Origin: a virus
Length of the DNA: 64,000 bases
Virus record (IMG/VR): IMGVR_UViG_3300030060_002738
Coordinates: 1-64,000 of that record
Direction: 5' to 3' (one strand)
In this document: in pieces, positions 8,568-61,017 of the stretch
How the letters are laid out: each line of letters begins with the position of its first letter
How positions within the stretch are numbered: position 1 is the stretch's first letter
Notes under the pieces: generated by a model
Told to the model about the DNA's origin: nothing
The model's input: only the letters and a program-made list of their open reading frames with translations
The model's database searches: none
Made by a program: the position numbers and the translations under genes

Positions 8568-8856
8568 TTTTATTATCCTCCTTAAACGAGACTTTCGCTT
8601 CAAGCAATTCTGCTCTGACGACTTCTGCTATTTTTATTCTTAATTCTGTCATCACTGTGTTCATGTATATTTGACCAAAGGGAGTTCTTTCTTCTGCAAA
8701 AATATCAGTCTCCCAAATCATTTTCAGTTTATCAGTTGTGGGCATTTTCTCATACAATGTCTCTGCTAGATTGTTTACCGTATCAGATACGTTTGCAATC
8801 TCCGAGAAACTCCACACCTTTTGATTCAATTCTTCTTTTACCATTTTATCTATCAT
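8482..8856 (-). CDS. Hypothetical protein with charged C-terminal tail
   Basis: 124 residues, not recognised. Residues 1-90 are predicted helical; the last 33 (about 92-124) are low-complexity Lys/Ser/Glu and are encoded largely in the 86-base overlap with the primase gene. The start is supported by GAGG seven bases upstream. The position next to primase suggests a replication accessory role, but nothing in the sequence proves it. Confidence 0.6.
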   Translation of the reverse strand: MIDKMVKEELNQKVWSFSEIANVSDTVNNLAETLYEKMPTTDKLKMIWETDIFAEERTPFGQIYMNTVMTELRIKIAEVVRAELLEAKVSFKEDNKNGNAKRSVGGKSSKKRTTDEKKSSQDEE

Positions 8857-8956
8857 TTTTCTTCCTCTTTACTTTATTCTTGTTTTCGTGATACTGCTCC
8901 CAAGTCATTCCATTACTTTCTGTTATGAAAGCCCATAGTCTGCTTAGAAGTTTCAT
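8846..8956 (-). CDS. 36-residue basic peptide
   Basis: MKLLSRLWAFITESNGMTW followed by a Lys/Asn/Arg-rich end. The ATG overlaps the stop of the DUF7694-like gene as ATGA and the 3' end overlaps the next gene. Coupling supports translation; function unknown. Confidence 0.5.
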   Translation of the reverse strand: MKLLSRLWAFITESNGMTWEQYHENKNKVKRKKNDR

Positions 8957-9672
8957 TCATTATTCTCTCCTTGTAGTCTCTGTTGTTGCATTCTTATGTA
9001 CTTCGCTGATACGAAGCCCTCTTCCATATCTCGTTGTCTGATGAAGTTCTTGCCTCCATGTGGCACTACTAGGTCATTCGCTGCTGCTACATGTTCTGCC
9101 TCTTGTTGAGACTGAAGTATAGCACCATTCTTCCATCCTATTTTCATAGGGTTATCTTCCATGAAGACCCACAGGTGATACTGATTGCTTGTATCTACCA
9201 TTCTTGACATGGCAGGATACAGTTCTATCGCTTCCTTCTCTTCACCACATATCTCGTTCTTTATCCTTTGAAGGTCTCTCCAATCGTGAGCCATGTGATT
9301 GTTATCGTTGTTCTTGATTGACAAATGCTTCATTGGTATTCCCAATTGGTCTGAAGCGTCATACACCTGAACAACGTATCTACTGTTAGCATACACTGCT
9401 TCAGGTATCTTGAGAGCCTTTTGTGATAAAGGAGAGACGTTGGTATGTTCATTCATCTTTGTAGTATTCTCCATCTGCATCTTGAGTATATGTTCATCCT
9501 TCTCTAGTGTAGTCCAAGCAGGGCGATGCTTCAGATATATGTCTATCACATCATCAAGGTTTGATGCATGTATGATTTTCTCTTTGGGTTTACTAGGAGG
9601 CATACGATTACCTTTGGAAGTCTTACTTCTCAGATATCTCAACCTTCTGTTTCTTGCATCATTTCTAGGCAT
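8953..9672 (-). CDS. DUF7694-like protein
   Basis: 239 residues from the ATG at 9672, which overlaps the preceding stop as TAATG and has GGAGAG nine bases upstream. The core near residues 118-172 carries the recognisable phage segment DWRDLQRIKNEICG ... AIELYPAMSRMVDTSNQYHLWV, followed by a His-containing stretch (VVPHGGKNFIRQRD). This segment is widespread in phage genomes without known function. The N-terminus is very basic. Confidence 0.6.
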   Translation of the reverse strand: MPRNDARNRRLRYLRSKTSKGNRMPPSKPKEKIIHASNLDDVIDIYLKHRPAWTTLEKDEHILKMQMENTTKMNEHTNVSPLSQKALKIPEAVYANSRYVVQVYDASDQLGIPMKHLSIKNNDNNHMAHDWRDLQRIKNEICGEEKEAIELYPAMSRMVDTSNQYHLWVFMEDNPMKIGWKNGAILQSQQEAEHVAAANDLVVPHGGKNFIRQRDMEEGFVSAKYIRMQQQRLQGENNE

Positions 9673-10553
9673 TAGAACCAACTCTCCGTATTAGCAGCAT
9701 CACATATTCCAAAGAAACTACAATTAGAGCAGGTCTTTGCAAAATACTTTGTTGGGAATATTCCCGTCTCATAGGAATGAATCATCTCTGCTATTCCTTT
9801 CTTAACAGCAGTCATACTACTCTTCTTTGCATCTTCAACGTAGATGTAGTTAGCAGCAGGATAATACCAACCCCAATGGGATATAGGAATCTCAGGGTCT
9901 AGACCCATCTCCTCTAACTCTGCGTTTGGTGTATTCTCAAAGAGAATCTTGTAGAAGGCCATCTCCTTACGCATCATAGTCTTCTTCCAATCTTTCCATC
10001 CACCAGTCTTCAACTCCATAGGAATGTATCTATCTCCTTCCCTGAACATCCTGTCAATGATTCCTTGTAGATGAACATTGTAATCCTGAGATAATTCATA
10101 CTTAGGATTCTCATCACTCCTGATGGTTATACGAGCATCTAGCATTGCCTCATTCACAACAGGAACAAAATTCTCAGTTGTTCCTTCTGCTAATGATTCC
10201 TTGAATCTGTTAGCCTCAAAGATGGACATTGCCTCATACATCTCGGTATAGTCATCGATAGGATGAAGACTCAAGCAGTAGTTTACTAGTTCCTCATGGG
10301 ATAGATTCTCTGCTTTCTTTACATCGAAGGCATTGAAGAACGCCTCTCTAGCATTGTGTATGATACTTCCCTTAATCATAACTTCAGTGGTTTCTATCGG
10401 TCTCTTCTCGACATATTGAAACTCATATCTCTTAGGACACCATTGATAAGAACCGAGAGAAGACTTCGATATCTTCAGTATTGGTTCTCCTTCTTGTCCA
10501 TAATTTTCAGGCTTCCATTGGTATGTGTATTCATTTGTATTACTTTGTCTCAT
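9672..10553 (-). CDS. Cas4/RecB-like PD-(D/E)XK nuclease with Fe-S cysteines
   Basis: 293 residues. The N-terminal ISKSSLGSYQWCPKRYEF holds the first cysteine; GSIIHNAREAFF has the conserved His; LQGIIDRMF ... YIPMELKTG is the D...ExK core; and CSNCSFFGIC at the C-terminus gives three more cysteines, as in Cas4/AddB iron-sulphur nucleases. It probably resects DNA ends with the nearby RecA-like ATPase and SSB. The start has GGTGA upstream. Confidence 0.85.
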   Translation of the reverse strand: MRQSNTNEYTYQWKPENYGQEGEPILKISKSSLGSYQWCPKRYEFQYVEKRPIETTEVMIKGSIIHNAREAFFNAFDVKKAENLSHEELVNYCLSLHPIDDYTEMYEAMSIFEANRFKESLAEGTTENFVPVVNEAMLDARITIRSDENPKYELSQDYNVHLQGIIDRMFREGDRYIPMELKTGGWKDWKKTMMRKEMAFYKILFENTPNAELEEMGLDPEIPISHWGWYYPAANYIYVEDAKKSSMTAVKKGIAEMIHSYETGIFPTKYFAKTCSNCSFFGICDAANTESWF

Positions 10554-10911
10554 GTGTCTTCACCTTTCTTCTACTCATGATTTCATCCCCTAATTTATCC
10601 ATGCATTCTCTGCATGTGCATTCTGTCGGGTGTGGGGGTTCTTGTATCATGACAATCTTATCACCCTTAGAATGTTTTTCTATTCTATATCCGATGAACG
10701 TGTGGTCATCAGGAAATATTTCTGTTACTACCTCTACTTCCTTTTCCTTTGTTAGTTTAGGAATCTCTATCTTTGGTATCTCCACTTCTGATACTATCTT
10801 CTTTGCTTTAGGAGTGAACCATTTTTTGAATTTATTCCATCTAACTAGAATGGAATCTATTCTTCTCTTGTTAGTCCAAGAGAGACTGTTATAGAAACTT
10901 CTCAAAACCAT
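10540..10911 (-). CDS. Hypothetical protein with CxCxxC motif
   Basis: 123 residues if the ATG at 10911 is used; a TTG at 10905 overlapping the PolB stop as TTGA, with GGAGG seven bases upstream, is an alternative. The N-terminus is basic (RRIDSILVRWNKFKKWF), the middle has a repeated pattern of EIPKIEIPKL, and the end holds ECTCREC. Not recognised. It is encoded directly after the C-terminal half of PolB. Confidence 0.55.
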   Translation of the reverse strand: MVLRSFYNSLSWTNKRRIDSILVRWNKFKKWFTPKAKKIVSEVEIPKIEIPKLTKEKEVEVVTEIFPDDHTFIGYRIEKHSKGDKIVMIQEPPHPTECTCRECMDKLGDEIMSRRKVKTHETK

Positions 10912-11840
10912 TCCTCCAAGGATGATTGCTTCGTGTCTTTCTTTATCTGCATTACATCCCAATCCATCGCTCGGAATATTGGCTCTGCTTTCTTCACGAC
11001 TGACTCTGCATAATGAGACCAATCAGGTGTAAACTCGTCAAACTCGTCAGCAGTCAATCTAGACACATAGTTTGGTTTGACGAATGTTCGTGTTAACGGA
11101 TGTCTGTATGTTTGTGTGCAATCCTTAATTCTAAGATACAGATAGGTATCATCTATCGTTTGATATCCCTGAGAATAACTAAACAATACACCCTCGACTC
11201 CTGCACCAAAGGTTGGTCTCTTACCACCCATTGTGACAAAGTTGTTGCAAACCATCAACTCACCACTGTCATCTAGACAACCCCCATTATCCATGAGGTC
11301 AAATACACTTATTCCTTTGACATTAGACCATGCTTTATCGAATCTAGCATGTGGATTACATCTCTTACATACTACCTTGAATCGTTCTTCACGATATCTG
11401 CTTCTTTGTAGGATATCTGTAAGTGATATTTGACCGTTCATCACATCATTGTACTTCTTATTCAGAAAAGATACTATCTTTTGCTCAGATTTTCCTTCTA
11501 TCCACATCCTTAGCACAGTAAGTTGAACATCTTTTGCTAGTTTAGTTAAAGAAACCCTCTTTGCAGTGAATCCAGTCATCACGAACTCCTCTTCATCTAG
11601 AAATTCACCGTCTTTCCAAGTAATTAGACCTGCATTTCTGTTCTTCGTTGCCCCAACACCTAAAGTTCTGAAGTATTTCTCAAACTCTAGTGTTACAGGA
11701 TGTTCTTTCAGTCCCATAACGTTAGGAAACGCTTCTCTGACATGCTCATTCAGTATTTTTAACGTCTTTTCAGCAGTTTCGATGCTATTATCCTCAATAT
11801 CAACATAAATTGAGTCAGTATGACCGTAAACTACCTTCAT
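10902..11840 (-). CDS. polB: Family B DNA polymerase, C-terminal half (motif C, thumb)
   Basis: 312 residues. Motif C appears at the very start (YGHTDS, residues 5-10; Asp9 is the catalytic acid), so this polypeptide supplies the last part of the palm and the thumb. GFTAKRVSLTKLAKD matches the conserved thumb-side lysine region. Residues about 140-190 form an insertion with four cysteines (VVCKRC, GGCLDD, MVCNNF) that may bind zinc. The last eight residues, QSSLEEWF, are a consensus PIP box that should bind PCNA. It must pair with the N-terminal half to be active. Confidence 0.9.
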   Translation of the reverse strand: MKVVYGHTDSIYVDIEDNSIETAEKTLKILNEHVREAFPNVMGLKEHPVTLEFEKYFRTLGVGATKNRNAGLITWKDGEFLDEEEFVMTGFTAKRVSLTKLAKDVQLTVLRMWIEGKSEQKIVSFLNKKYNDVMNGQISLTDILQRSRYREERFKVVCKRCNPHARFDKAWSNVKGISVFDLMDNGGCLDDSGELMVCNNFVTMGGKRPTFGAGVEGVLFSYSQGYQTIDDTYLYLRIKDCTQTYRHPLTRTFVKPNYVSRLTADEFDEFTPDWSHYAESVVKKAEPIFRAMDWDVMQIKKDTKQSSLEEWF

Positions 11841-11953
11841 GTTAACAACTCCACTGCTATAATCATAGCAATAATGACCTTTATGAGACTAAACACTGTT
11901 CTTAGCAGTGCTAGTGTTGCAAATCGGTCTTGTGACCACTGTTCTAAGTTCAT
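11837..11953 (-). CDS. 38-residue membrane peptide between the PolB halves
   Basis: MNLEQWSQDRFATLALLRTV followed by a hydrophobic segment (IIAMIIAVELL). The ATG overlaps the stop of the upstream 68-residue gene by ATGA, and its stop overlaps the start of the PolB C-terminal half by ATGA. This exact double overlap makes translation likely. Function unknown. Confidence 0.65.
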   Translation of the reverse strand: MNLEQWSQDRFATLALLRTVFSLIKVIIAMIIAVELLT

Positions 11954-12156
11954 ATTAGATTCACATCCTGTAATATTGATATTATTCCATAAATGAACAC
12001 AATAGCGAATAAAACTCGACCTGCTACTCTAATGGCAAGCCTACTGTCCTTGAGAATCTGACTTATCGCCTGTTTTCTCAATTCAGTCTCTGATTTAGGC
12101 TCTTCCTTTATCTTTACCTTTGTAAAATCTACATCTGCACTCTTGATTGGCATCAT
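11950..12156 (-). CDS. 68-residue membrane protein between the PolB halves
   Basis: The first half is charged (DFTKVKIKEEPKSETELRKQ) and the second half is one membrane helix (VLFAIVFIYGIISIL). It overlaps the PolB N-terminal gene and the 38-residue gene by four bases each, so all four genes would be translated in a coupled chain. Not recognised. Confidence 0.75.
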   Translation of the reverse strand: MMPIKSADVDFTKVKIKEEPKSETELRKQAISQILKDSRLAIRVAGRVLFAIVFIYGIISILQDVNLI

Positions 12157-13850
12157 AACTCCCTCACTTTGAATGCTGCAATACGAATTGCTTCTCTAGC
12201 ACTAGCAGTAATGCTTGCTGCTAAATCAACATCAGCCCAACCAAATCCCTGATACGCAATGATACCATAGAAGGATGCCATCAATCTCTTGACCGCTAGT
12301 TGGTTGTTGTTCCACTTTACATATTCACTTTCACTTTCACTTTCTTTCATTTTCACTTTGTATTCATTTCTCAACTGCTTCAGTTCTAGAACTGCTTTTG
12401 GTAGCAATCCTAGTTCCTTAGTCTTGTAGTATCTCATATCATAGTTGATAATCTTAGAGAAGTCTTTAGGTGTTGCTAGATTTACACCAAATTGTGTTGG
12501 TAGTTTTGACTTGGTTTCCCAAGAGATATTTCTAGCAATCATCATGCTTGGATACAGACCTGCAAAGTCAAAGGCTGCAACACCCAAATGAAGACCATTT
12601 GTAGCCTCACTGAGCGGGTCATAGACCATCGCCCCATCATACTCTACCCTGTCTCCTTTGCGCCCCGTAGGAGCCTTCCATGAGGCATTTCGCATGAAGT
12701 ATATTCCACCCATGTTTGATGCATAGAAACATGCATCGAATGGTGCAATCAGTAAACGCTGTAACGAGAGTATCGCTTCAGTTGTGAAGTTCTCTTCGTC
12801 TATCCTCTTGATTAACTCAACGTCTTTCTTAGCATACTCTAGATAGGTTTCAGTGTCTTCCTGCCAACCTCTTCTGAAGAACTCGTTCTTATCAGGAAAC
12901 TTCTCGCTGACTAACTTCTTCTCTCCTAAGACATTCTCTGATACATAGTCTAGAGATAGAGAAGGTAGAGTTCCTCGTTGTGCATCATTCCATTGTCTCT
13001 CAAATGCCAAGTCAAGAGGGACACATATCCTACCCTTGATTGGCTGTGCTATTGGAGAGTAGTTCTCTATCTGCTTTGTCTTTAGAATATGCCTTCTCTC
13101 CTTGATGTTCCACTCTACTCCTGTAACCTCTTGAACAGGAGACAGTAAAGTAGGAGTAATGCCATTCACATACAGTCTCTCAATCAACTTAGGTAAGTCG
13201 AACTTCCATCCGAACCAAGAGATAAGCATGTCCGGGTCTTTCTCATCTAACATCAATAGGAATCTTTCTAGTATTGTCCTCTCGTTCTCATTGCCATCTT
13301 CAGTATAGCCTTCCTTCTTTGGTTGCCAAGTCAGTGTGTAGTATTCATCATCGTAGTTGTCATACACAACAATAGCAGTAATAGCACCATCATGTTCACC
13401 ACCTTGCATCCACTCCATGTCCCAATACCACTTTCTTAGATTGTACTCAGGAAGTTCATCTAACTCATCAACAGCATATCTGTAATGATGTTGAACATCT
13501 GCTTCATAGGTCTCAATATCTCTATCATGGTAGAACGTTCTTACTTTAGCAGTCATTCCACCTAAACTAGTCTTTCCAGTCTTACAAGGAGTCCAAGTCA
13601 CTTTGAGAAGTGATTCTCCTTCTAAGTTCACCCAATCGCCCTCTTCATAAGTCACAGTGACAACAAACTTCTCTTTGCCTCTGAACCCTTCAGACATCGC
13701 TATCCTTGCTGGCTCTGCTTGTGTAATATCATTAGCACGAATGAAGAAATATGGAGAGAACTCTCGGTAGGTCACAGTCTTCTCGACTCTCTCGTTGTTC
13801 TCATCCCTCCATCTTAGAAGAACGCCTTCTGTTGTATTTGCTATTATCAT
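12153..13850 (-). CDS. polB: Family B DNA polymerase, N-terminal half (exonuclease, motifs A and B)
   Basis: 565 residues. Exonuclease motifs: DME at 144-146, FGWKFD ending at Asp218, and YAKKD at 339-343. Polymerase motif A is DFAGLYPS at 428-435 and motif B is KRLMASFYG at 521-529. The protein stops about 36 residues after motif B, exactly where an intact enzyme would run into motif C, which is carried by the gene at 10902-11840. All catalytic residues on this half are present, including the proofreading acids. A Ser-Glu repeat (ESESESE, about 503-509) lies between motifs A and B. Confidence 0.92.
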   Translation of the reverse strand: MIIANTTEGVLLRWRDENNERVEKTVTYREFSPYFFIRANDITQAEPARIAMSEGFRGKEKFVVTVTYEEGDWVNLEGESLLKVTWTPCKTGKTSLGGMTAKVRTFYHDRDIETYEADVQHHYRYAVDELDELPEYNLRKWYWDMEWMQGGEHDGAITAIVVYDNYDDEYYTLTWQPKKEGYTEDGNENERTILERFLLMLDEKDPDMLISWFGWKFDLPKLIERLYVNGITPTLLSPVQEVTGVEWNIKERRHILKTKQIENYSPIAQPIKGRICVPLDLAFERQWNDAQRGTLPSLSLDYVSENVLGEKKLVSEKFPDKNEFFRRGWQEDTETYLEYAKKDVELIKRIDEENFTTEAILSLQRLLIAPFDACFYASNMGGIYFMRNASWKAPTGRKGDRVEYDGAMVYDPLSEATNGLHLGVAAFDFAGLYPSMMIARNISWETKSKLPTQFGVNLATPKDFSKIINYDMRYYKTKELGLLPKAVLELKQLRNEYKVKMKESESESEYVKWNNNQLAVKRLMASFYGIIAYQGFGWADVDLAASITASAREAIRIAAFKVREL

Positions 13851-13857
13851 AATATAA

Positions 13858-14625
13858 TCACCTAGTTAGATATGGTGCTTTAATCAGTAATCTGTCCTCC
13901 CCTGCCCAAACAACAGGAGACTCGTCTTTCAGATAGATAGTCACAGGGACCGAACCACGAAAGAACTTGTGGAACTGACCTGTTACTTCTACTGTTGCTG
14001 ATTCACCATTTGTATAGACAGTAGGAACAACGACATCTACTTTATCGATATCAGTTCTCCTGCTTGATATGGTGAAGTTATCTTCATCCGTATTCAACAG
14101 ATACTTTGCATTGTTGATGACATCACAGGTCTTGATTGCATCTGTTAGAATAGTAGACCCTGTTGTGATGATTGACTCAAAGACGACACTGCTGAATACT
14201 GCATTCTCAGGTGTAATAGTGTATCCTTGAAGTCTAGCAATCATAGCCACGTTTGGGTGACTGACTACTAATGGAACACTAGCCCTCTTACCTCCTCCTT
14301 CATCTTGTAATAGGATAAAGTCGCCTACGTCAAGTAGAACGGTATCTCCTGTAAATGTCTTAAGATACTTCAGCATCTTATCTATCTCTACAACCGCCAT
14401 GTTGCTACCATCTTCATCTATCTGCCTAATGATAGGAACAGACACACGACAGATGGTTTGGTTGTCGGCATTGTATAGATTCAGTATATTGTCCTCAATG
14501 AGTTCTAGCATAGCATAGTCAGTAAGTTGACTATTCTTTGCTGAATCTCCATTGTGATACTTTCCTTTCATCCATACATCTTCTATTGCGTTTGTTAATA
14601 CTCTATTTGTTATTTCTATTTTCAT
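13858..14625 (-). CDS. pcn: PCNA-like sliding clamp
   Basis: 255 residues, the usual length for archaeal PCNA. The N-terminus (MKIEITNRVLTNAIEDV), the AVVEIDKMLKYLKTF segment and the C-terminal PVTIYLKDESPVVWAG ... YLTR follow the two-domain clamp pattern. It should form a ring that tethers PolB, whose C-terminal half ends in a PIP box. A GGAGGAATAG ribosome-binding site precedes the start. It sits seven bases upstream of polB. Confidence 0.85.
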   Translation of the reverse strand: MKIEITNRVLTNAIEDVWMKGKYHNGDSAKNSQLTDYAMLELIEDNILNLYNADNQTICRVSVPIIRQIDEDGSNMAVVEIDKMLKYLKTFTGDTVLLDVGDFILLQDEGGGKRASVPLVVSHPNVAMIARLQGYTITPENAVFSSVVFESIITTGSTILTDAIKTCDVINNAKYLLNTDEDNFTISSRRTDIDKVDVVVPTVYTNGESATVEVTGQFHKFFRGSVPVTIYLKDESPVVWAGEDRLLIKAPYLTR

Positions 14626-14697: not shown

Positions 14698-15561
14698 TCA
14701 AAGTTCTCCTGATTTTATCTCAGGGAAGCCCGACCAGTCTACCTTTCCATCATCGATGGATAAGACCTTTAGCCTCTTACCAATCAACTCAGGCTTTCTA
14801 GCACTTGCCTCAACGATAGCCGTAAAGGTAGCACCATTCTTCCTGATGTCTCTTGTCATCCTCACTGTCGAAGTAAAGATGTCCTCTGTTGAAGAATGCC
14901 AGTTAGCCTCAACCCCGATAGGGTTAGGGTTTCCAGCATACTTGTCTTTAGAGTGAGCAATCACTATTCGATGACAAGGCATCTCTAGTATCTGCTTGTG
15001 CAGGAAGTTCCTGTAAGGTGTATTCCTGTCACCCCAAACATAGGGTGCAGCCTTCATTACCGTATCAGCATCAAGACCATGCTTGTTTCTCATGTAGGTT
15101 TCACAGACATCTGTTAGTAGTTTATCTGCTCCATCTACTATTACTGCCTTCAACTTGCCATCTGCAAGATACTCTTTCGCCATTTCATAGAACGCTCTAG
15201 CGTTACTCATCGTTTCCTCAAAGTTCACAAGACTCTCATCATGTCTTACAATAGGATTGTAGACAATTAGATTCTCGATGTTACCGTAGTGGTTACGCTT
15301 TACATCTATCGCTCTGTTGTCAAAATCAAGCACAAGAACGTACATGTCATTCTTTACGTCTTCCTCAGTTAGCAAGTCTAGTGCGACTGCTGACTTCGCT
15401 GATTTGGGTTCTCCCCAAATACCAAGACACAGGAATGACTTATCATTCTCCTGTGATTCCTTAATCTGCTGAAGCATTGCCTCCTTTCGGAGAGCATACT
15501 GCCCCTTTGCAGACTCTTTCGTTGTTACTGCTTCTGTTTTCTTACCTGTTGTCCAACTCAT
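14698..15561 (-). CDS. RecA/RadA-superfamily ATPase (Sak4-like)
   Basis: 287 residues from the ATG at 15561, supported by GGTGAT four bases upstream; 22 further in-frame codons upstream look non-coding. Walker A-like GEPKSAKSAVA at about 35-45 (Ala replaces the usual Gly before Lys-Ser) and Walker B KAVIVDGADKL near 142. A short RecA-fold protein of this kind next to SSB and a Cas4-like nuclease suggests single-strand annealing or strand exchange during recombination-dependent replication. Confidence 0.75.
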   Translation of the reverse strand: MSWTTGKKTEAVTTKESAKGQYALRKEAMLQQIKESQENDKSFLCLGIWGEPKSAKSAVALDLLTEEDVKNDMYVLVLDFDNRAIDVKRNHYGNIENLIVYNPIVRHDESLVNFEETMSNARAFYEMAKEYLADGKLKAVIVDGADKLLTDVCETYMRNKHGLDADTVMKAAPYVWGDRNTPYRNFLHKQILEMPCHRIVIAHSKDKYAGNPNPIGVEANWHSSTEDIFTSTVRMTRDIRKNGATFTAIVEASARKPELIGKRLKVLSIDDGKVDWSGFPEIKSGEL

Positions 15562-15811
15562 GTTTATCACCATTTTTATATTCATTAGGGTCAAATGTAA
15601 TACCCTTCCATTGTTCCAATAATTCATTAAGTTCTGTGAGAGATAACTTAACCCTCACATCCTTTGATATGAAATGGAACTTAGTCCAATAGTCTCCCGT
15701 ATCGGGATTGTACTTCCATGTTAGGAAGTCTACGTCATCCATAAGAAAAGCGAAACTCCTCCCATGAACGACGAGACCTCCATTGGAATCAGCACTCATA
15801 CTGTATTCCAT
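15542..15811 (-). CDS. Hypothetical protein
   Basis: 89 residues, not recognised. Aromatic-rich beta-type sequence in the middle (DFLTWKYNPDTGDYWTKFHF) and an amphipathic helix (LTELNELLEQWKGI). It overlaps the RecA-like gene by 20 bases and follows the SSB-like gene by nine bases, so it is part of the recombination cluster. Confidence 0.6.
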   Translation of the reverse strand: MEYSMSADSNGGLVVHGRSFAFLMDDVDFLTWKYNPDTGDYWTKFHFISKDVRVKLSLTELNELLEQWKGITFDPNEYKNGDKHELDNR

Positions 15812-19980: not shown

Positions 19981-21513
19981 TCAATATATGTTGCTACACA
20001 ATTCCTCTACGTCATCAAGAGTATTGCAGTCAGCAGGATACTTGTCATCTCTTATTCTGACTATCCTTGGAAATCTCATTCCATAAGTTCCATCTTGATT
20101 CTGACTAATTAAGTCACAAGTGACCTCAAGGACTATTCTAGGCAAGAAGTGGTATGTCCCTCCATTGAAACCATCAACTATTCTTTTCAACTGAGTATCT
20201 AGTGAGTACATCTCTTCCTCTGATATACCACTACCAACCTTACCGATGTTCACATAGTCTGAACCATCTCTAACACTAACACCGTATGTGCCTATCACAC
20301 CTGCTCTCTTTCCCTTTCCATATTCACCTGATGTTATAACAACATCAAGTTCTACTCTTGGTGGTTTGTACTTCAGTAGTGCAACTGTTCTCTTAGACTC
20401 GTACCGTGCATTCAAGTCCTTTATCATCACACCCTCAAAACCACTATTGATTGCTACATTGTAAGCAGCCTCAACATTCCCATGTGTAAACGCCTGAGCA
20501 ACATACTCGGATGGTACAATCGTTTCTAGATACTCTAGCCTGTCGCCATATGTGTCACTGAGTATTGATTGTCCCTGATATAGAAGACAGTCAAACACCA
20601 CTAGTTGAACAGGACACTTGGATATTGCTAGTTGCTTATCCTTTGAATGCACTCTAGTTGCTAATGTCTGATGCGGAGCAGGAGTTCCATCGTTTGTTAT
20701 TGGGTATATCTCAGTATCCAGTATGAAGTTGTTAGACTCCCACTGACTTATAATCGCTACAATATCAGCATACTGCTCTGTGACAATCTTTCCCTTGCGA
20801 TTGAAGATGATAACATCAGTATCCTTCTTGTGTATCTGATACCTATTACCATCATACTTGATATCCATAACGAACTGCTCAGGAAGTTTGCCTAAGTATT
20901 TCTTAGCAAGCATTGGCTTTACAAAGTTACCATGCACCAACTCAGGTGGTTCTAGGTCATTCTCTAGATAGTCAACTAGACTGGTTAGAGAGTGTCCTAC
21001 TGAATACCTCTTGATGTCTCTTTGATAATAGTCAGTCATGGCCTTCTCGACAGTGCTTTTGTTGACACCGTTTCTAGGAGTTCTCAACCAATAGCGGATA
21101 AACCACTTTACTTCTAAAGCAGACATTCTTCCTATTGCATCTCTAATCGTCTCATAACTACCACTGTTGCTCATCGATGAACAATCTAGTTCCAGTAGCC
21201 TTACCATGTCTGAAAGAGAGAAGGTTGAATCAGGTCTATTCGCACTCAGAAACTCTTTCATTCCTTCTCCTAAGTCCATCCAACTATGAGCAGCATCTGC
21301 TATCTCATCCTCAAACACACCTAGAATCTTAGCCATCCACTTGATAGCCTTCTTCTCGCCTATGTTATTCATCTCATACTCAAGTGACAGTATCTTAATC
21401 GCTGCCTTTCTATCCTCAAAGTGAGATAAGGTAGCACAAATCCTGTGTCTCTTTTCTGATGGTGTTCTGTCCTCTAAGGATTCACACATCCTGCTCATTC
21501 GTATCATTGTCAT
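19981..21513 (-). CDS. lig: ATP-dependent DNA ligase (replicative type)
   Basis: 510 residues from the ATG at 21513 (GAGAGGA upstream). An N-terminal helical DNA-binding domain is followed by motif I KYDGNR (Lys219 takes AMP), then motif III-like FILDTEIYP, EGVMIK (motif IV) and LLKYKP (motif V), and an OB domain ending in FPRIVRIRDDK. The architecture matches archaeal/eukaryotic Lig1-type enzymes. It would seal Okazaki fragments. This is one of two ATP ligases in the window; the other lies in the structural block. Confidence 0.92.
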   Translation of the reverse strand: MTMIRMSRMCESLEDRTPSEKRHRICATLSHFEDRKAAIKILSLEYEMNNIGEKKAIKWMAKILGVFEDEIADAAHSWMDLGEGMKEFLSANRPDSTFSLSDMVRLLELDCSSMSNSGSYETIRDAIGRMSALEVKWFIRYWLRTPRNGVNKSTVEKAMTDYYQRDIKRYSVGHSLTSLVDYLENDLEPPELVHGNFVKPMLAKKYLGKLPEQFVMDIKYDGNRYQIHKKDTDVIIFNRKGKIVTEQYADIVAIISQWESNNFILDTEIYPITNDGTPAPHQTLATRVHSKDKQLAISKCPVQLVVFDCLLYQGQSILSDTYGDRLEYLETIVPSEYVAQAFTHGNVEAAYNVAINSGFEGVMIKDLNARYESKRTVALLKYKPPRVELDVVITSGEYGKGKRAGVIGTYGVSVRDGSDYVNIGKVGSGISEEEMYSLDTQLKRIVDGFNGGTYHFLPRIVLEVTCDLISQNQDGTYGMRFPRIVRIRDDKYPADCNTLDDVEELCSNIY

Positions 21514-21718
21514 TTTTATTCCTCTCAATTATCTTATTCAGTGCCTTAGCGACATCTTTCATTTCTTCTATATTCATTCTAACGCCTTTCTTTGTTGGTG
21601 TTCCGTTAGCATACCAACGAATGTCAACGATGTCAACATTCCAATAATTACCTGTTCTCACTGTTAATTCTTCATTCCCGTTTCTTGGGACTCTTACTAT
21701 TATTTTTTCACCCTTCAA
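21482..21718 (-). CDS. PC4-like ssDNA-binding transcription coactivator
   Basis: 78 residues from a TTG at 21718 that has GGTGG five bases upstream; an ATG at 21784 would add 22 residues encoded within the upstream gene. The core VDIVDIRWYANGTPTKKGVR and the following helix match the PC4/Sub1 p15 domain (IDIRxW ... GxxxPTKKGI). PC4 proteins bind single-stranded DNA and promote transcription. With TFB in the same operon it may help transcribe viral genes or melt promoters. Confidence 0.7.
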   Translation of the reverse strand: MKGEKIIVRVPRNGNEELTVRTGNYWNVDIVDIRWYANGTPTKKGVRMNIEEMKDVAKALNKIIERNKNDNDTNEQDV

Positions 21719-22106
21719 GCCAACCACCCTTAAACTGCTGTAAGTTCTTCCACGACTTAAAGTATCGTGGAGACTCTTGTTCATCTATTCTGTGTGCTAC
21801 CCATACAACACCACCAAGACTGCTAATCTTAACCAACTCGTATGTTTTCCCTTCAACTTCAAACATGTCTTCTGTCTCTATATCAGGAACTAGACCAAAC
21901 TTTTGAGATAATTCATTTGCTATTTCATCCATGTGTTCAGCAATGTATTGAACGATTAGATGTCGTTGTATTGGCACTTTAGCATCAACTGTGACCTTTA
22001 TCTTACCTGACATCTCACATACTACACACTTGTTGCCTAAACAAATAGGACATTCTATCTCAGCAGGTAGCGGAGCAGGAAAGCGAATAGTCACTGCTTT
22101 CTTCAT
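21708..22106 (-). CDS. Hypothetical protein with N-terminal zinc knuckle
   Basis: 132 residues from an ATG overlapping the lipoprotein stop as ATGA. CPICLGNKCVVC near residue 19 is a compact CxxC-x4-CxxC zinc site. The rest (IVQYIAEHMDEIANEL and later a beta-rich part) is not recognised. Confidence 0.65.
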   Translation of the reverse strand: MKKAVTIRFPAPLPAEIECPICLGNKCVVCEMSGKIKVTVDAKVPIQRHLIVQYIAEHMDEIANELSQKFGLVPDIETEDMFEVEGKTYELVKISSLGGVVWVAHRIDEQESPRYFKSWKNLQQFKGGWLEG

Positions 22107-22576
22107 TGTCTGCCATCCCATACTCTGTATATCAGTTCATATTCAACTGTTACATCGAATGGGAACGATGCGAAGTGCAACGTTGCATTACCAAACTCAG
22201 GAGCAAAACCACTTGACCAATATTTATCCTCTTGAACCAAGTAGCCTTGCCAACCTACCCAACTGTAATTACTGAATATGACAGAGTTATTCACTACCTC
22301 AAAGGATAGGTGTGTTATATTGTATGTGAGGGATTGGAGTTCAATTGCTCCATAACTAGTGTTAACATCTACCCAAATTGTAGGGGCGTGTATGAATGAT
22401 TCATTACTAGTATTATCCATAACAAGAGTGAACTCTCCTGTCATAGACACCCAATCTGCTTGTGCTGTCTGTCCTTCAAACTCCTCTTCCGGTGGGCTAG
22501 GTAATCCATCTGTGCATCCTGCTAGGAGTGCTACTGCTATCATCAAAACTATTGCTTTACTGATGCTGGTCTTCAT
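22103..22576 (-). CDS. Secreted lipoprotein
   Basis: 157 residues from the ATG at 22576, chosen because GAGAGG lies nine bases upstream and it gives a clean signal peptide: MKTSISKAIVLMIAVALLAGC, with a lipobox LLAGC and the Cys at position 21. The mature part starts acidic and Pro-rich, then is beta-rich with several N-glycosylation-type Asn-x-Ser/Thr sites (DNTSNES, YNITHL, NYSW). It should be anchored outside the host membrane and could block superinfection or alter the surface. Confidence 0.7.
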   Translation of the reverse strand: MKTSISKAIVLMIAVALLAGCTDGLPSPPEEEFEGQTAQADWVSMTGEFTLVMDNTSNESFIHAPTIWVDVNTSYGAIELQSLTYNITHLSFEVVNNSVIFSNYSWVGWQGYLVQEDKYWSSGFAPEFGNATLHFASFPFDVTVEYELIYRVWDGRQ

Positions 22577-25752: not shown

Positions 25753-26033
25753 GTTTTCACCACCATGTAATGTCGAAGTGATTTGATTGGTCTTGGTGGG
25801 ACTAACCGAGGTTCTTCGACTACAACCTCTACTTCTTCTATTTCCTTCTGTACCTCTTTGATGTCCATTCCCTTTTGCATGGGAAGAAGTACACTCCTTC
25901 TATACTGTTCCTTCCACATCACTTGAATACAGTCATTGCATAACCTTCTGCTATCTGCCAAGTGTTCAGGAACAGGCTCATCCTCTTTACCACAAAGAGT
26001 CTTTCCTAAAATCGAGAAATGAATATACTTCAT
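25749..26033 (-). CDS. Hypothetical protein with zinc pair and Glu/Val-rich segment
   Basis: 94 residues; LCGKED and LCNDCIQ give three Cys with a nearby His (EHLADSRRLC). A repetitive stretch EIEEVEVVVEEPRLVPP follows. Not recognised. ATGA-coupled to both neighbours. Confidence 0.55.
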   Translation of the reverse strand: MKYIHFSILGKTLCGKEDEPVPEHLADSRRLCNDCIQVMWKEQYRRSVLLPMQKGMDIKEVQKEIEEVEVVVEEPRLVPPRPIKSLRHYMVVKT

Positions 26034-26275
26034 TCCCCTTTCTCCTTGTATGCAGGATGCTTCTTCGGCAACCTGTGCAGTCTCTTCTCTATCTTGTTGT
26101 TAACAAATGATGCAATCTCATTAACACCATTCTTCCAACGCTTCTCTAACTCGCTATAATACTGGTCGCCTTTGTGTTGTAGCACCATCTTTTCTTCTAA
26201 TTCTGTTAAGTCTATTTTATCCATTATATATTTCAATACTTCATATTCAACATGTACCTTTGAACTCGCTCTCAT
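26030..26275 (-). CDS. Hypothetical helical protein
   Basis: 81 residues, predicted all-helical and basic at the C-terminus (EKRLHRLPKKHPAYKEKG). Not recognised. ATGA overlaps with neighbours. Confidence 0.55.
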   Translation of the reverse strand: MRASSKVHVEYEVLKYIMDKIDLTELEEKMVLQHKGDQYYSELEKRWKNGVNEIASFVNNKIEKRLHRLPKKHPAYKEKGE

Positions 26276-26439
26276 TCATCTTCACCTCTACATTTTTTAC
26301 ATGATAGATTTGTTTTACATCTACCACAAATCACTAATGCATCCTTCAGTGGAAGAGCAGCACCTGCACTATTCATATGACCTAAGAAGGTCTCAATTGG
26401 ATAGTGACAGGAACACTCTTCACAATCGCATTCTTTCAT
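26272..26439 (-). CDS. 55-residue Cys-rich zinc protein
   Basis: Begins MKECDCEECSCHYPIE and ends with VICGRCKTNLSCKKC: nine Cys and two His, enough for two zinc sites. The ATG overlaps the E1-like stop by ATGA and the stop overlaps the next ATG by ATGA. It directly follows the E1-like gene, so it may be part of that system. Confidence 0.65.
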   Translation of the reverse strand: MKECDCEECSCHYPIETFLGHMNSAGAALPLKDALVICGRCKTNLSCKKCRGEDE

Positions 26440-27032
26440 ATGTTTAACACCATCTTATCGATGACATCATCATTGTCGTTGAACCACTTCTGTATCCACT
26501 GTGACGCTACACCTGCAATCACGATGTTCATACAGTCAATTCCCTTTGGACTTCCATCCCAATCAGTCGCCTGACATGAGAAAGAACCCTCTTGACCAGC
26601 AAGAAAGGCATCCATGAGATTAGGGTCTATCTTGTAGGAAATTAATGCTGCATTTCGCCCCTGCGCTCGCAAATCTAGCCACTTAATCTTGGCTTCTGAC
26701 CCAAACCCCTGCCGATACAACAAACGCCTCACAGCAAGGTTATCCGCACAGCAGATTACCAAATGATAACCCTGTAACTGCTTCTCGGTTAGAACCCTGA
26801 ATGGCTCATCTCTTACTGTTCCACGATTATTAGTGTCGTAAACTTTGACAGCAAGAGTGGTTGCCTTGTTCTCCCCAATATCAGAGACATTAAAGTTCTG
26901 ATATCCTATGTTCTTTCTCTCAACACCATCGTCATCCCATAGTGTTATCTTGTATCCTAGTCTTTGGAGAAACTGAGTTAGAAAACTCCCTATTCCTCCT
27001 GCTCCAATTATCATTACTCTTCTATTTATCAT
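26436..27032 (-). CDS. E1/ThiF-like adenylyltransferase
   Basis: 198 residues from the ATG at 27032 (GGTGAT upstream). The Rossmann loop GAGGIGS (10-16), the acidic strand end WDDD (32-35), NIGYQNFNVSDIGENKA (41-57) and YHLVICCADN match ThiF/MoeB/E1 proteins; Tyr replaces the usual Arg before Gln in N-x-x-R-Q. E1 enzymes adenylate the C-terminal Gly of a ubiquitin-like protein. Candidate catalytic Cys residues lie at FSCQATD and IDCMN. The protein is shorter than MoeB (about 250). Confidence 0.8.
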   Translation of the reverse strand: MINRRVMIIGAGGIGSFLTQFLQRLGYKITLWDDDGVERKNIGYQNFNVSDIGENKATTLAVKVYDTNNRGTVRDEPFRVLTEKQLQGYHLVICCADNLAVRRLLYRQGFGSEAKIKWLDLRAQGRNAALISYKIDPNLMDAFLAGQEGSFSCQATDWDGSPKGIDCMNIVIAGVASQWIQKWFNDNDDVIDKMVLNI

Positions 27033-58452: not shown

Positions 58453-61017
58453 ATGAAAACATCAGGCGTATCCTTTGAAAAGGAAACTAAGGCTCTATCA
58501 AAAAGAGTTCTAGATTTCTTTGAGAGGGTGCGTTACGCATACCTATCTGCAAAGGAGAACCCGAAGGAGTACGGTAAGAACTGGAAGGCAACCGTCAAAT
58601 CCATCCGTGAAGAGTATGATGGGCTAGGAGAGTTCGCTAGTGAACTGAAAGAGAACGTCAAGGAGAAGGAACTCTTTGACGACAAGGTGTATGATGCTGA
58701 GAGTCTACTTGCTAGAAGGGTGTATGAAGACATAAAGAGAATGCGATTTGAGTCAAAGGGAGCGGCAGACCCGTTTTCAGAACAACTAGGAAATAAGGTC
58801 TTAGAAGTCCTATTAGACGACAAGGCTACTTTCGCTGCATTCATTCACTATGCTTTGAGAAGTCACTCCAACCCACTGCCTAAGAAAGCATGGAAAGAGA
58901 GCAAACTAAAGCCTGACGAAATAACTCAGGGATACATGGGATTGGACTTAGAAGAGAGAGATATTCCTCTATACATCATTGAGCATTATGGTGATGATAA
59001 GGACTCTAGGAGAGTGCAAGGAAAGTTCAAAGAAGCACTTGGTATTTTAGAGGAAGTATACAACAGCAGTTATACAGAAGACAAGTGGGAAGCCTTGAGA
59101 GATATCGATATCGCAAAGTCCGAGGAAATGAAAGAGGACATTGATTTCATCATACCCAACAAACCGATGTATAGAATCTTTGAGTTAGATGACATGAAAG
59201 ACATCAAGGGGCTGAGTGGAGAGTATGTCGTACAAGAGAAGTATGATGGAATGAGAATACAAATCCAAAAGGTCAACAAGGACATCAAGATATACTCATA
59301 CAATGAAAAGGACATCACGGATAAATGTCCTGAGATTGTAGAGAAGATGCAGAAAAAGGGGATTGGTGACTGCGTTCTAGATGGCGAACTACTACTGTTT
59401 CAAGGAGACGATGCACTACACAGAGCGAGTGTGATAACTCACATCTTCAAGAAGAAGATACCCGATACAAGACTAAGAGCGCATGTCTTTGATGTTATGA
59501 AGCACGAAGGTAAGGACTTGATGGATGAACCTCTAAGAGAAAGGATAAACATTCTATTCTATCAATACTCGCAACACTCATCAGATGAATTGGCTTTCCC
59601 TTCCAAGAAGGATACAAGGATTGCTGACTCTATGGAGGAAGTCGGAGAGTATGCAGAGAAGATAATGGAGATGCCAACCTCGGAAGGTGTTGTCATCAAG
59701 GACATCGAATCTACATACTACATGGGTAGGAAGAAGAACCCTAAGTGGATTAAGTGGAAGAAGTTCGTGGATTTAGATGTCATAGTCCTAGAAGACAGGA
59801 AGACCAAAAGCGGTTTGCATTCATACACTATGGGAATAGGGCCATTGACTGCTGAACAGACTAGAGAGATGAAGACAATTGAACTCGATGATAAGAACTA
59901 CCTCCCTGTTGGTAAGGCATTGAATACCAAAGTAGAGGTTGATATTGGAGATATCATTCGTGTCAAGGTTGATGAGGTTACTAAGAAGGGCAAGGGATTC
60001 AGTCTCTACTCTGCTAAAGTCATAGAGTTGCCTGAAGTAGAAGAGTCAGACAAGTTGGAGACATTGGAGCAACTAGCCACTAAGACGAAGAAAGCCCTGA
60101 TACCGAAACATCCTTTCATCAGACCATCTGATTTGACTAGCCCTCTCACAGTCATATCAGAATTACAGAGAGAAAAGAAGAACAAGAGGAGGATAAAGAA
60201 ATATCTTGTTACCGATTATGTTCATGGTGAAGCAGAGATAATCTGTAAGCATGAACTAGAGGGGTTCACAATCTATGGGTTCGATGGTGATTCCCTAATG
60301 CAGAAGAATGCACTTTACAATATGGATGAATGGAGAGGACAACTAGAGAAACTAATGAAGTCTCGGAAGTCCAAACTCAGAGTTGCAATTAGAAAAATCA
60401 TAGAGGAGAATCAGAAACCCGTAGATTTCGATGAGTTAGATGAGAAACTGAGAATTACCGAGGAAGATGCATATGATGAAATCTTTGAGGGCAAACCAAA
60501 GAACCTCTTGGCATGGATGAAGAATCAAGATGCTTTCATCTTTATTTCTCCTGACAAGTTTGATGTTTCTCCTGAGAATATAGAGAAGGATGAGGATAAG
60601 GAATTAACAGGAGAGTTTGAAGTCAGACAGCGTGAGGATGGAAACTTAGATTTCATAATAGAGACTGATAACAAGAGAATGGCTTGGTTAATTGACCTAG
60701 AAAAGCCTGAAGATATCTTTGATTTATTTGGTAAGTCAGGAAAGTTCCCTGCTATGGTATCAGAGAAGATAGACAGCACAAAAGTCATTGATAGCGGAGA
60801 ACTGTTGTTTGGTGTTCAACGAGATGGTTATCATGAATATCGAATGGAAGGAGATAAGTTCCAAACTAGAATACACTTCAGAGTTGTTCCACTAGATGAG
60901 AAAAAGTCTTGGATAGTATTTACAGGCAAGAAACAGGACATGTTAGAAGATACTTCTGATGAAGGAATCATCGATATTAGAAAAGACAAGTTTAGTAATT
61001 TACAACTACCTGAATAA
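58453..61017 (+). CDS. Second ATP-dependent DNA ligase with degenerate phosphoesterase-like tail
   Basis: 854 residues. N-terminal 240 residues are helical and not recognised. The ligase core has motif I EKYDGMRI (Lys263), DGELLLF, SEGVVIKD and KWIKWKKF, then an OB domain. A helical/winged part follows (about 560-700). Residues 722-835 align in pattern with the 3'-phosphoesterase domain of LigD (FEVRQREDGNLDF, then MAWLIDL) but lack its catalytic His residues. Its place between head genes is unusual; it may be packaged. Confidence 0.75.
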   Translation: MKTSGVSFEKETKALSKRVLDFFERVRYAYLSAKENPKEYGKNWKATVKSIREEYDGLGEFASELKENVKEKELFDDKVYDAESLLARRVYEDIKRMRFESKGAADPFSEQLGNKVLEVLLDDKATFAAFIHYALRSHSNPLPKKAWKESKLKPDEITQGYMGLDLEERDIPLYIIEHYGDDKDSRRVQGKFKEALGILEEVYNSSYTEDKWEALRDIDIAKSEEMKEDIDFIIPNKPMYRIFELDDMKDIKGLSGEYVVQEKYDGMRIQIQKVNKDIKIYSYNEKDITDKCPEIVEKMQKKGIGDCVLDGELLLFQGDDALHRASVITHIFKKKIPDTRLRAHVFDVMKHEGKDLMDEPLRERINILFYQYSQHSSDELAFPSKKDTRIADSMEEVGEYAEKIMEMPTSEGVVIKDIESTYYMGRKKNPKWIKWKKFVDLDVIVLEDRKTKSGLHSYTMGIGPLTAEQTREMKTIELDDKNYLPVGKALNTKVEVDIGDIIRVKVDEVTKKGKGFSLYSAKVIELPEVEESDKLETLEQLATKTKKALIPKHPFIRPSDLTSPLTVISELQREKKNKRRIKKYLVTDYVHGEAEIICKHELEGFTIYGFDGDSLMQKNALYNMDEWRGQLEKLMKSRKSKLRVAIRKIIEENQKPVDFDELDEKLRITEEDAYDEIFEGKPKNLLAWMKNQDAFIFISPDKFDVSPENIEKDEDKELTGEFEVRQREDGNLDFIIETDNKRMAWLIDLEKPEDIFDLFGKSGKFPAMVSEKIDSTKVIDSGELLFGVQRDGYHEYRMEGDKFQTRIHFRVVPLDEKKSWIVFTGKKQDMLEDTSDEGIIDIRKDKFSNLQLPE

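Follow-up and report, generated by a model that had tools for sequence, protein, structure and literature searches.

Two-piece family B DNA polymerases (PolB) have been described in both viruses and cells. In the Aeromonas phages 25 and 44RR, gp43 is split, and the halves of the phage 25 protein co-purify and constitute an active polymerase (PMC2988022). A seg nuclease sits with the split gene 43 of phage 25, and homing nucleases are able to split essential phage genes (PMC2988022). In Methanobacteriales, the split of PolB has been ascribed to the erratic loss of inteins (PMC4104785). The ICTV profile of the Aoguangviridae lists PolB-NTD and PolB-CTD together with PCNA and RFC-S in the legend of its Figure 1, and describes a genome of 90-100 kb in which the replication and virion modules run in opposite directions (PMC10768690).

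The DNA analyzed here, referred to as the window, comprises 64,000 nucleotides of a source record of 98,040 bp. Its plus strand encodes TerL, a portal protein, an S78 protease and a SU10-type MCP, and its minus strand an RFC-like ATPase, a DNA ligase, an ERCC4 nuclease, a PD-(D/E)XK nuclease and the split PolB. The virus is a tailed marine virus, and its hosts are probably archaea. Two properties of Magrovirales are found in it: the size of the record falls in the range of about 90-110 kb and its two modules, for replication and for the virion, are oppositely oriented, and the gene set includes N- and C-terminal parts of PolB, an RFC-like ATPase and a ligase, the clamp being represented by a weak match only. 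This layout matches the ICTV description of magroviruses, and the virus would be of magrovirus type. Because the two PolB parts are already listed by ICTV, a split PolB in this group is not new. The window also contains two ATP-dependent DNA ligase genes, one per module (19981-21528 and 58453-61017). Inspection by eye suggests that the replication-strand gene at 22103-22576 encodes a lipoprotein, with a signal peptide and a lipobox (LLAGC); judged by eye only, the protein encoded at 26436-27032, which begins MINRRVMIIGAGGIGSFLTQF, resembles a ThiF/E1-type enzyme.

A preceding sequence-only reading had described the polB locus as four minus-strand frames, in which the polymerase halves enclose genes of 68 and 38 codons (ORF68 and ORF38), and all four are present (Table 1). 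The chaining by ATGA that it reported is also seen, with 4-bp overlaps joining the consecutive frames at positions 12153-12156, 11950-11953 and 11837-11840. The real start of ORF68 is probably its second ATG, at 12153, which is favoured because TAATGCC occurs there in most close relatives; the protein would then have 67 aa and the overlap with the N-half would be 1 bp. Chaining is not special by itself, since this genome commonly uses 4-bp overlaps, which are found at 21 of its 65 called junctions. One strongly hydrophobic stretch is found in each of the small ORFs, with best 19-residue hydropathy values of 2.34 in ORF68 and 2.42 in ORF38, in agreement with the membrane helix that had been attributed to each.

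Table 1. Features of the split polB locus and its immediate neighbours (window coordinates).
Feature	Position	Strand	Characteristics
PD-(D/E)XK nuclease, downstream of C-half	9672..10553	-	profile match
polB C-half, 312 aa	10902..11840	-	motif C YGHTDS; thumb with Cys-rich insert; C-terminal PIP-like QSSLEEWF
ORF38 (family G7/F3), 38 aa	11837..11953	-	single-helix membrane peptide; passenger cassette
Shine-Dalgarno-like GTGGAG	11841..11860	-	within last ORF38 codons; serves C-half
ORF68 (family G4/F1), 68 codons	11950..12156	-	charged N-terminus; C-terminal hydrophobic helix
polB N-half, 565 aa	12153..13850	-	N-terminal and 3'-5' exonuclease domains; palm motif A DFAGLYPSM; fingers motif B KRLMASFYG
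Shine-Dalgarno-like AGTGAGGGAG	12156..12175	-	within last N-half codons; serves next gene
Putative sliding clamp (PCNA position)	13858..14625	-	weak profile match to bacterial beta clamp, E 0.003; directly upstream of N-half
AAA_24 ATPase, operon of polB	14698..15627	-	profile match

Both halves score above the cut-off of 23 bits for the Pfam DNA_pol_B profile (69.5 bits for the N-half and 37.5 bits for the C-half), the N-half covering it up to position 193 and the C-half from position 222. Alignment with the intact enzymes of the haloviruses HVTV-1 (913 aa), HRTV-27 (811 aa) and VOLN27B (860 aa), a comparison that the sequence-only reading had proposed, maps the break to the linker between the helix that follows motif B and the motif-C strand. 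The N-half ends 36 residues past motif B, and the C-half opens with MKVV directly followed by motif C. The earlier assertion that little is lost holds insofar as 0-2 linker residues are missing, but the C-half starts four residues ahead of motif C and not five.

Related loci were pooled from scans of sequence collections with PolB queries and from scans for ORF68 and ORF38, which provided 163 distinct loci containing both halves (numbered L). The break is at the same place in all of them, and none encodes an intact polB. The window derives from a metagenomic virus record, and a local misassembly or a sequencing error in a normal polB might in principle have produced it. However, the 163 loci originate from many metagenomes and share the break, yet the DNA between the halves differs among them. 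An identical break in so many distinct loci, none of them intact, argues against misassembly, the probability of which is practically nil, and we consider the split to be real, beyond chance or misassembly. Of the observations that were said to speak against the arrangement, an intact polB with no intervening genes in related genomes is absent from the 163 loci, although split polB genes with nothing in between do occur. The expectation that related viruses share the arrangement was borne out for the split in 163/163 loci, but not for the gap genes, which vary from one locus to another. One of the loci (L202, contig NZMJ01000151.1) belongs to a metagenome-assembled genome labelled Maricaulis, and probably represents viral DNA that binning assigned to a bacterium.

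The residues expected of the exonuclease (Exo I-III acidic residues) and of the palm, D144, E146, D218, Y339, D343 and D428, as well as K521, Y528 and G529 of motif B, are invariant in 20 relatives. Motif C reads YGHTDS in 159 loci and YAHTDS in the other four. A histidine thus replaces the first aspartate of YGDTDS and the second, metal-binding aspartate is retained; this catalytic residue is invariant in the alignments. Of 83 complete relatives, 74 have a C-half that ends in a PIP-like tail conforming to QxxLxxW[FW], and the remaining 9 have QxLxxWF, which is shorter by one residue. The dN/dS ratio is 0.04 for the N-half and 0.07 for the C-half. The conserved residues, the PIP-like tail and the low dN/dS values are marks of a working enzyme, for which polymerase activity is predicted. 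The thumb of the C-half (10902-11840) includes a Cys-rich, zinc-ribbon-like insert with an invariant CxxC plus CC or CxxC.

The organization of the gap suggests how its genes are translated. Overlaps of 4 bp account for 368 of the 658 gap junctions and overlaps of 1 bp for a further 70. Ribosome-binding sites were predicted from pairing with the 16S tail. Every one of the 163 loci has such a site ahead of the C-half, and 466 of the 500 gap ORFs have one as well, compared with 28% of internal ATGs; the site is located within the last codons of whichever gene comes before, the N-half included. The site ahead of the C-half, together with this hand-over from gene to gene, points to separate translation of the C-half as a protein of its own. 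Because every gene passes translation on to the next, cassettes can enter and leave cleanly; a swap is harmless to both halves because each gene supplies the ribosome-binding site and the start codon of its successor.

The length of the gap ranges from -4 to 1613 bp among the 163 loci. In five of them (L053, L071, L073, L079 and L155) the halves abut or overlap with no gene in between, and this state is found in four separate clades and corresponds to four separate changes on the PolB tree. The 158 filled gaps contain 500 small ORFs of 85 families (numbered G). Counting the empty gap, 92 arrangements are observed, and the PolB tree requires at least 197 gains and losses. Even in pairs of loci with a PolB identity of 95% or above, the gap genes differ in 48% of cases and are the same in 52%. 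The gap ORF at L043:5410-5754 codes for an HUH endonuclease domain of the Rep type (PF02407 Viral_Rep, E 4e-17) and is absent from the same place in the sister locus L031. The gaps of L141 and L362 contain an ORF that belongs to the membrane family DUF2061 (PF09834, E 3e-21).

These observations could also be read to mean that the gap is no more than a gene boundary of the usual kind in a compact, gene-swapping genome, and that the split is irrelevant to the capture of cassettes. Overlaps of 4 bp are indeed frequent across the window, neighbouring junctions also carry inserts, and three gap families have relatives elsewhere in the window genome (G10 at 26030-26275, G30 at 8846-8956 and G11 at 2617-2715). 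By contrast, inserts of more than 70 bp occupy 97% of the junctions between N- and C-half, compared with 13-38% of loci at the neighbouring junctions. The polymerase gap also holds far more families and hosts nuclease genes. We consider this explanation unlikely, albeit one to be kept in mind.

The sequence-only reading had proposed that the small membrane proteins anchor replication at the membrane or assist assembly of the halves. Several data are compatible with such a role. The ORF68 family (G4) is present in 35 of the 163 gaps with three changes on the PolB tree, and a pattern scan of IMG/VR with checked positions found no relative outside the polB gap; in another clade, a membrane family of 41-aa proteins that is unrelated to it, G1, is an equally stable resident. 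Both ORF68 and ORF38 are real genes, under purifying selection with median dN/dS values of 0.36 and 0.20, respectively. An enrichment of membrane families in the gap seems strong in comparison with three neighbouring junctions (17 of 85 against 0 of 42 families), but becomes marginal in comparison with all flanking small ORFs (13 of 65 against 3 of 55 families, p=0.03) and is not significant when only multi-member families are considered (p=0.29). On the other hand, a predicted membrane ORF is present in 101 of the 158 filled gaps and absent in 62 of all 163 loci, including those with no gene at all, and the C-half already carries a terminal clamp motif. Neither ORF68 nor ORF38 matches a Pfam family. 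ORF38, moreover, moves between sites. Its family (G7) is found in 23 gaps, and its distribution on the PolB tree requires at least 11 changes. In 10 other loci, relatives are located at a junction some 3 kb downstream, and no locus has them at both sites.

ORF68 is a long-term resident in the clade of the window virus, and ORF38 is a mobile passenger. Anchoring or assembly as a general function of the gap membrane proteins appears unlikely, and as an explanation of the locus it is improbable; ORF68 and ORF38 are probably dispensable for the polymerase. A polymerase-linked role of ORF68 may nevertheless exist within its own clade. The more specific proposal, that resident single-helix proteins such as the ORF68 family and G1 bind the split polymerase and either hold the viral replisome at the membrane or regulate how the halves assemble, is given little credence.

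Nuclease genes in some gaps point to a possible origin of the break. GIY-YIG genes (MUG113/T5orf172) are present in the gaps of L209, L266, L267 and L278, HNH genes in those of L212 and L361, and a weak HNH-like gene in L222; in all seven loci the nuclease gene occupies the first position after the N-half. The gap of the window itself contains no homing nuclease, and the case for a homing origin therefore comes from these seven relatives. The probable cause of the break is either a homing nuclease or the loss of an intein, in the conserved region of motif C. In one relative (L013), the N-half is 99% identical to that of L014, whereas the C-half is 93-95% identical to those of L022 and L023 and about 71% identical to that of L014. 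This suggests a recombinant in which the halves were exchanged between lineages, or possibly an assembly chimera.

Joining of the two halves after translation, by trans-splicing of a split intein, was considered as an alternative. Archaeal PolB enzymes with inteins are known, and a split intein is used by N. equitans (PMC4104785). The inner ends of the halves, however, contradict this mechanism. The N-half stops at the linker without a C-terminal extension, the C-half begins just ahead of motif C, and neither has extra sequence that might represent an intein fragment. No Hint domain was seen in the gap ORFs scanned, and in several relatives the halves overlap by 4 bp. The split intein was rejected as exceedingly improbable, and a translational fusion of the halves was likewise rejected on sequence grounds.

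We favour the interpretation that the locus encodes a two-cistron family B DNA polymerase of magrovirus-type marine tailed viruses, in which the gap is a gene-cassette site and ORF68 and ORF38 are passengers, with a probability of roughly 0.8. One mRNA would give rise to two separately translated halves. These would associate non-covalently, with motifs A and B contributed by one chain and motif C by the other, and the assembled polymerase would be held on the clamp via the PIP-like tail of the C-half. Reassembly and activity are anticipated from the sequence and by analogy. Cassettes in the format ATG, ribosome-binding site, ATGA would be inserted, lost or exchanged. Several points count against this interpretation: the first aspartate of motif C is a histidine, there is no reason given why the gap is filled so much more often than its neighbours, and the confinement and stability of ORF68 would also fit a polymerase-linked task.

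In an abundant group of marine viruses, an essential replicase is thus split in all members sampled, and the break is a site of gene exchange. The stop-start overlap with the hand-over of the ribosome-binding site accounts for the gain and removal of genes beside an essential enzyme without damage. The more than 160 natural variants of split PolB are a resource for studying the assembly of two-chain polymerases, and the gap is a defined spot in which to seek accessory, perhaps anti-defence, genes.

A comparison with known systems places the locus among several partial counterparts. Poseidoniales virus YSH_150918, a magrovirus of the Aoguangviridae, has the same split PolB and module layout as the window (PMC10768690); the openly readable literature on the magrovirus enzyme gives neither the break point, nor the universality of the split, nor the gap genes, which are supplied here. 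The two-subunit PolB of Methanobacteriales is also archaeal, but is a cellular gene (PMC4104785). In phage Aeh1, nrdA is split by mobE, so that an essential enzyme is broken by a homing nuclease and still functions (PMC2988022); it differs from the present case in being another enzyme with a single known insertion. The T4-like Aeromonas genes 43A and 43B resemble the present locus in that PolB is encoded in two cistrons with material between them (PMC2988022). There, what separates the cistrons is a seg homing nuclease or an untranslated spacer, and this is restricted to a few phages, whereas in the group sampled here all members have the split, and small genes form a chain between the halves that keeps changing. 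No description of this combination of a universal split with a fast-changing cassette gap was found in the openly readable literature.
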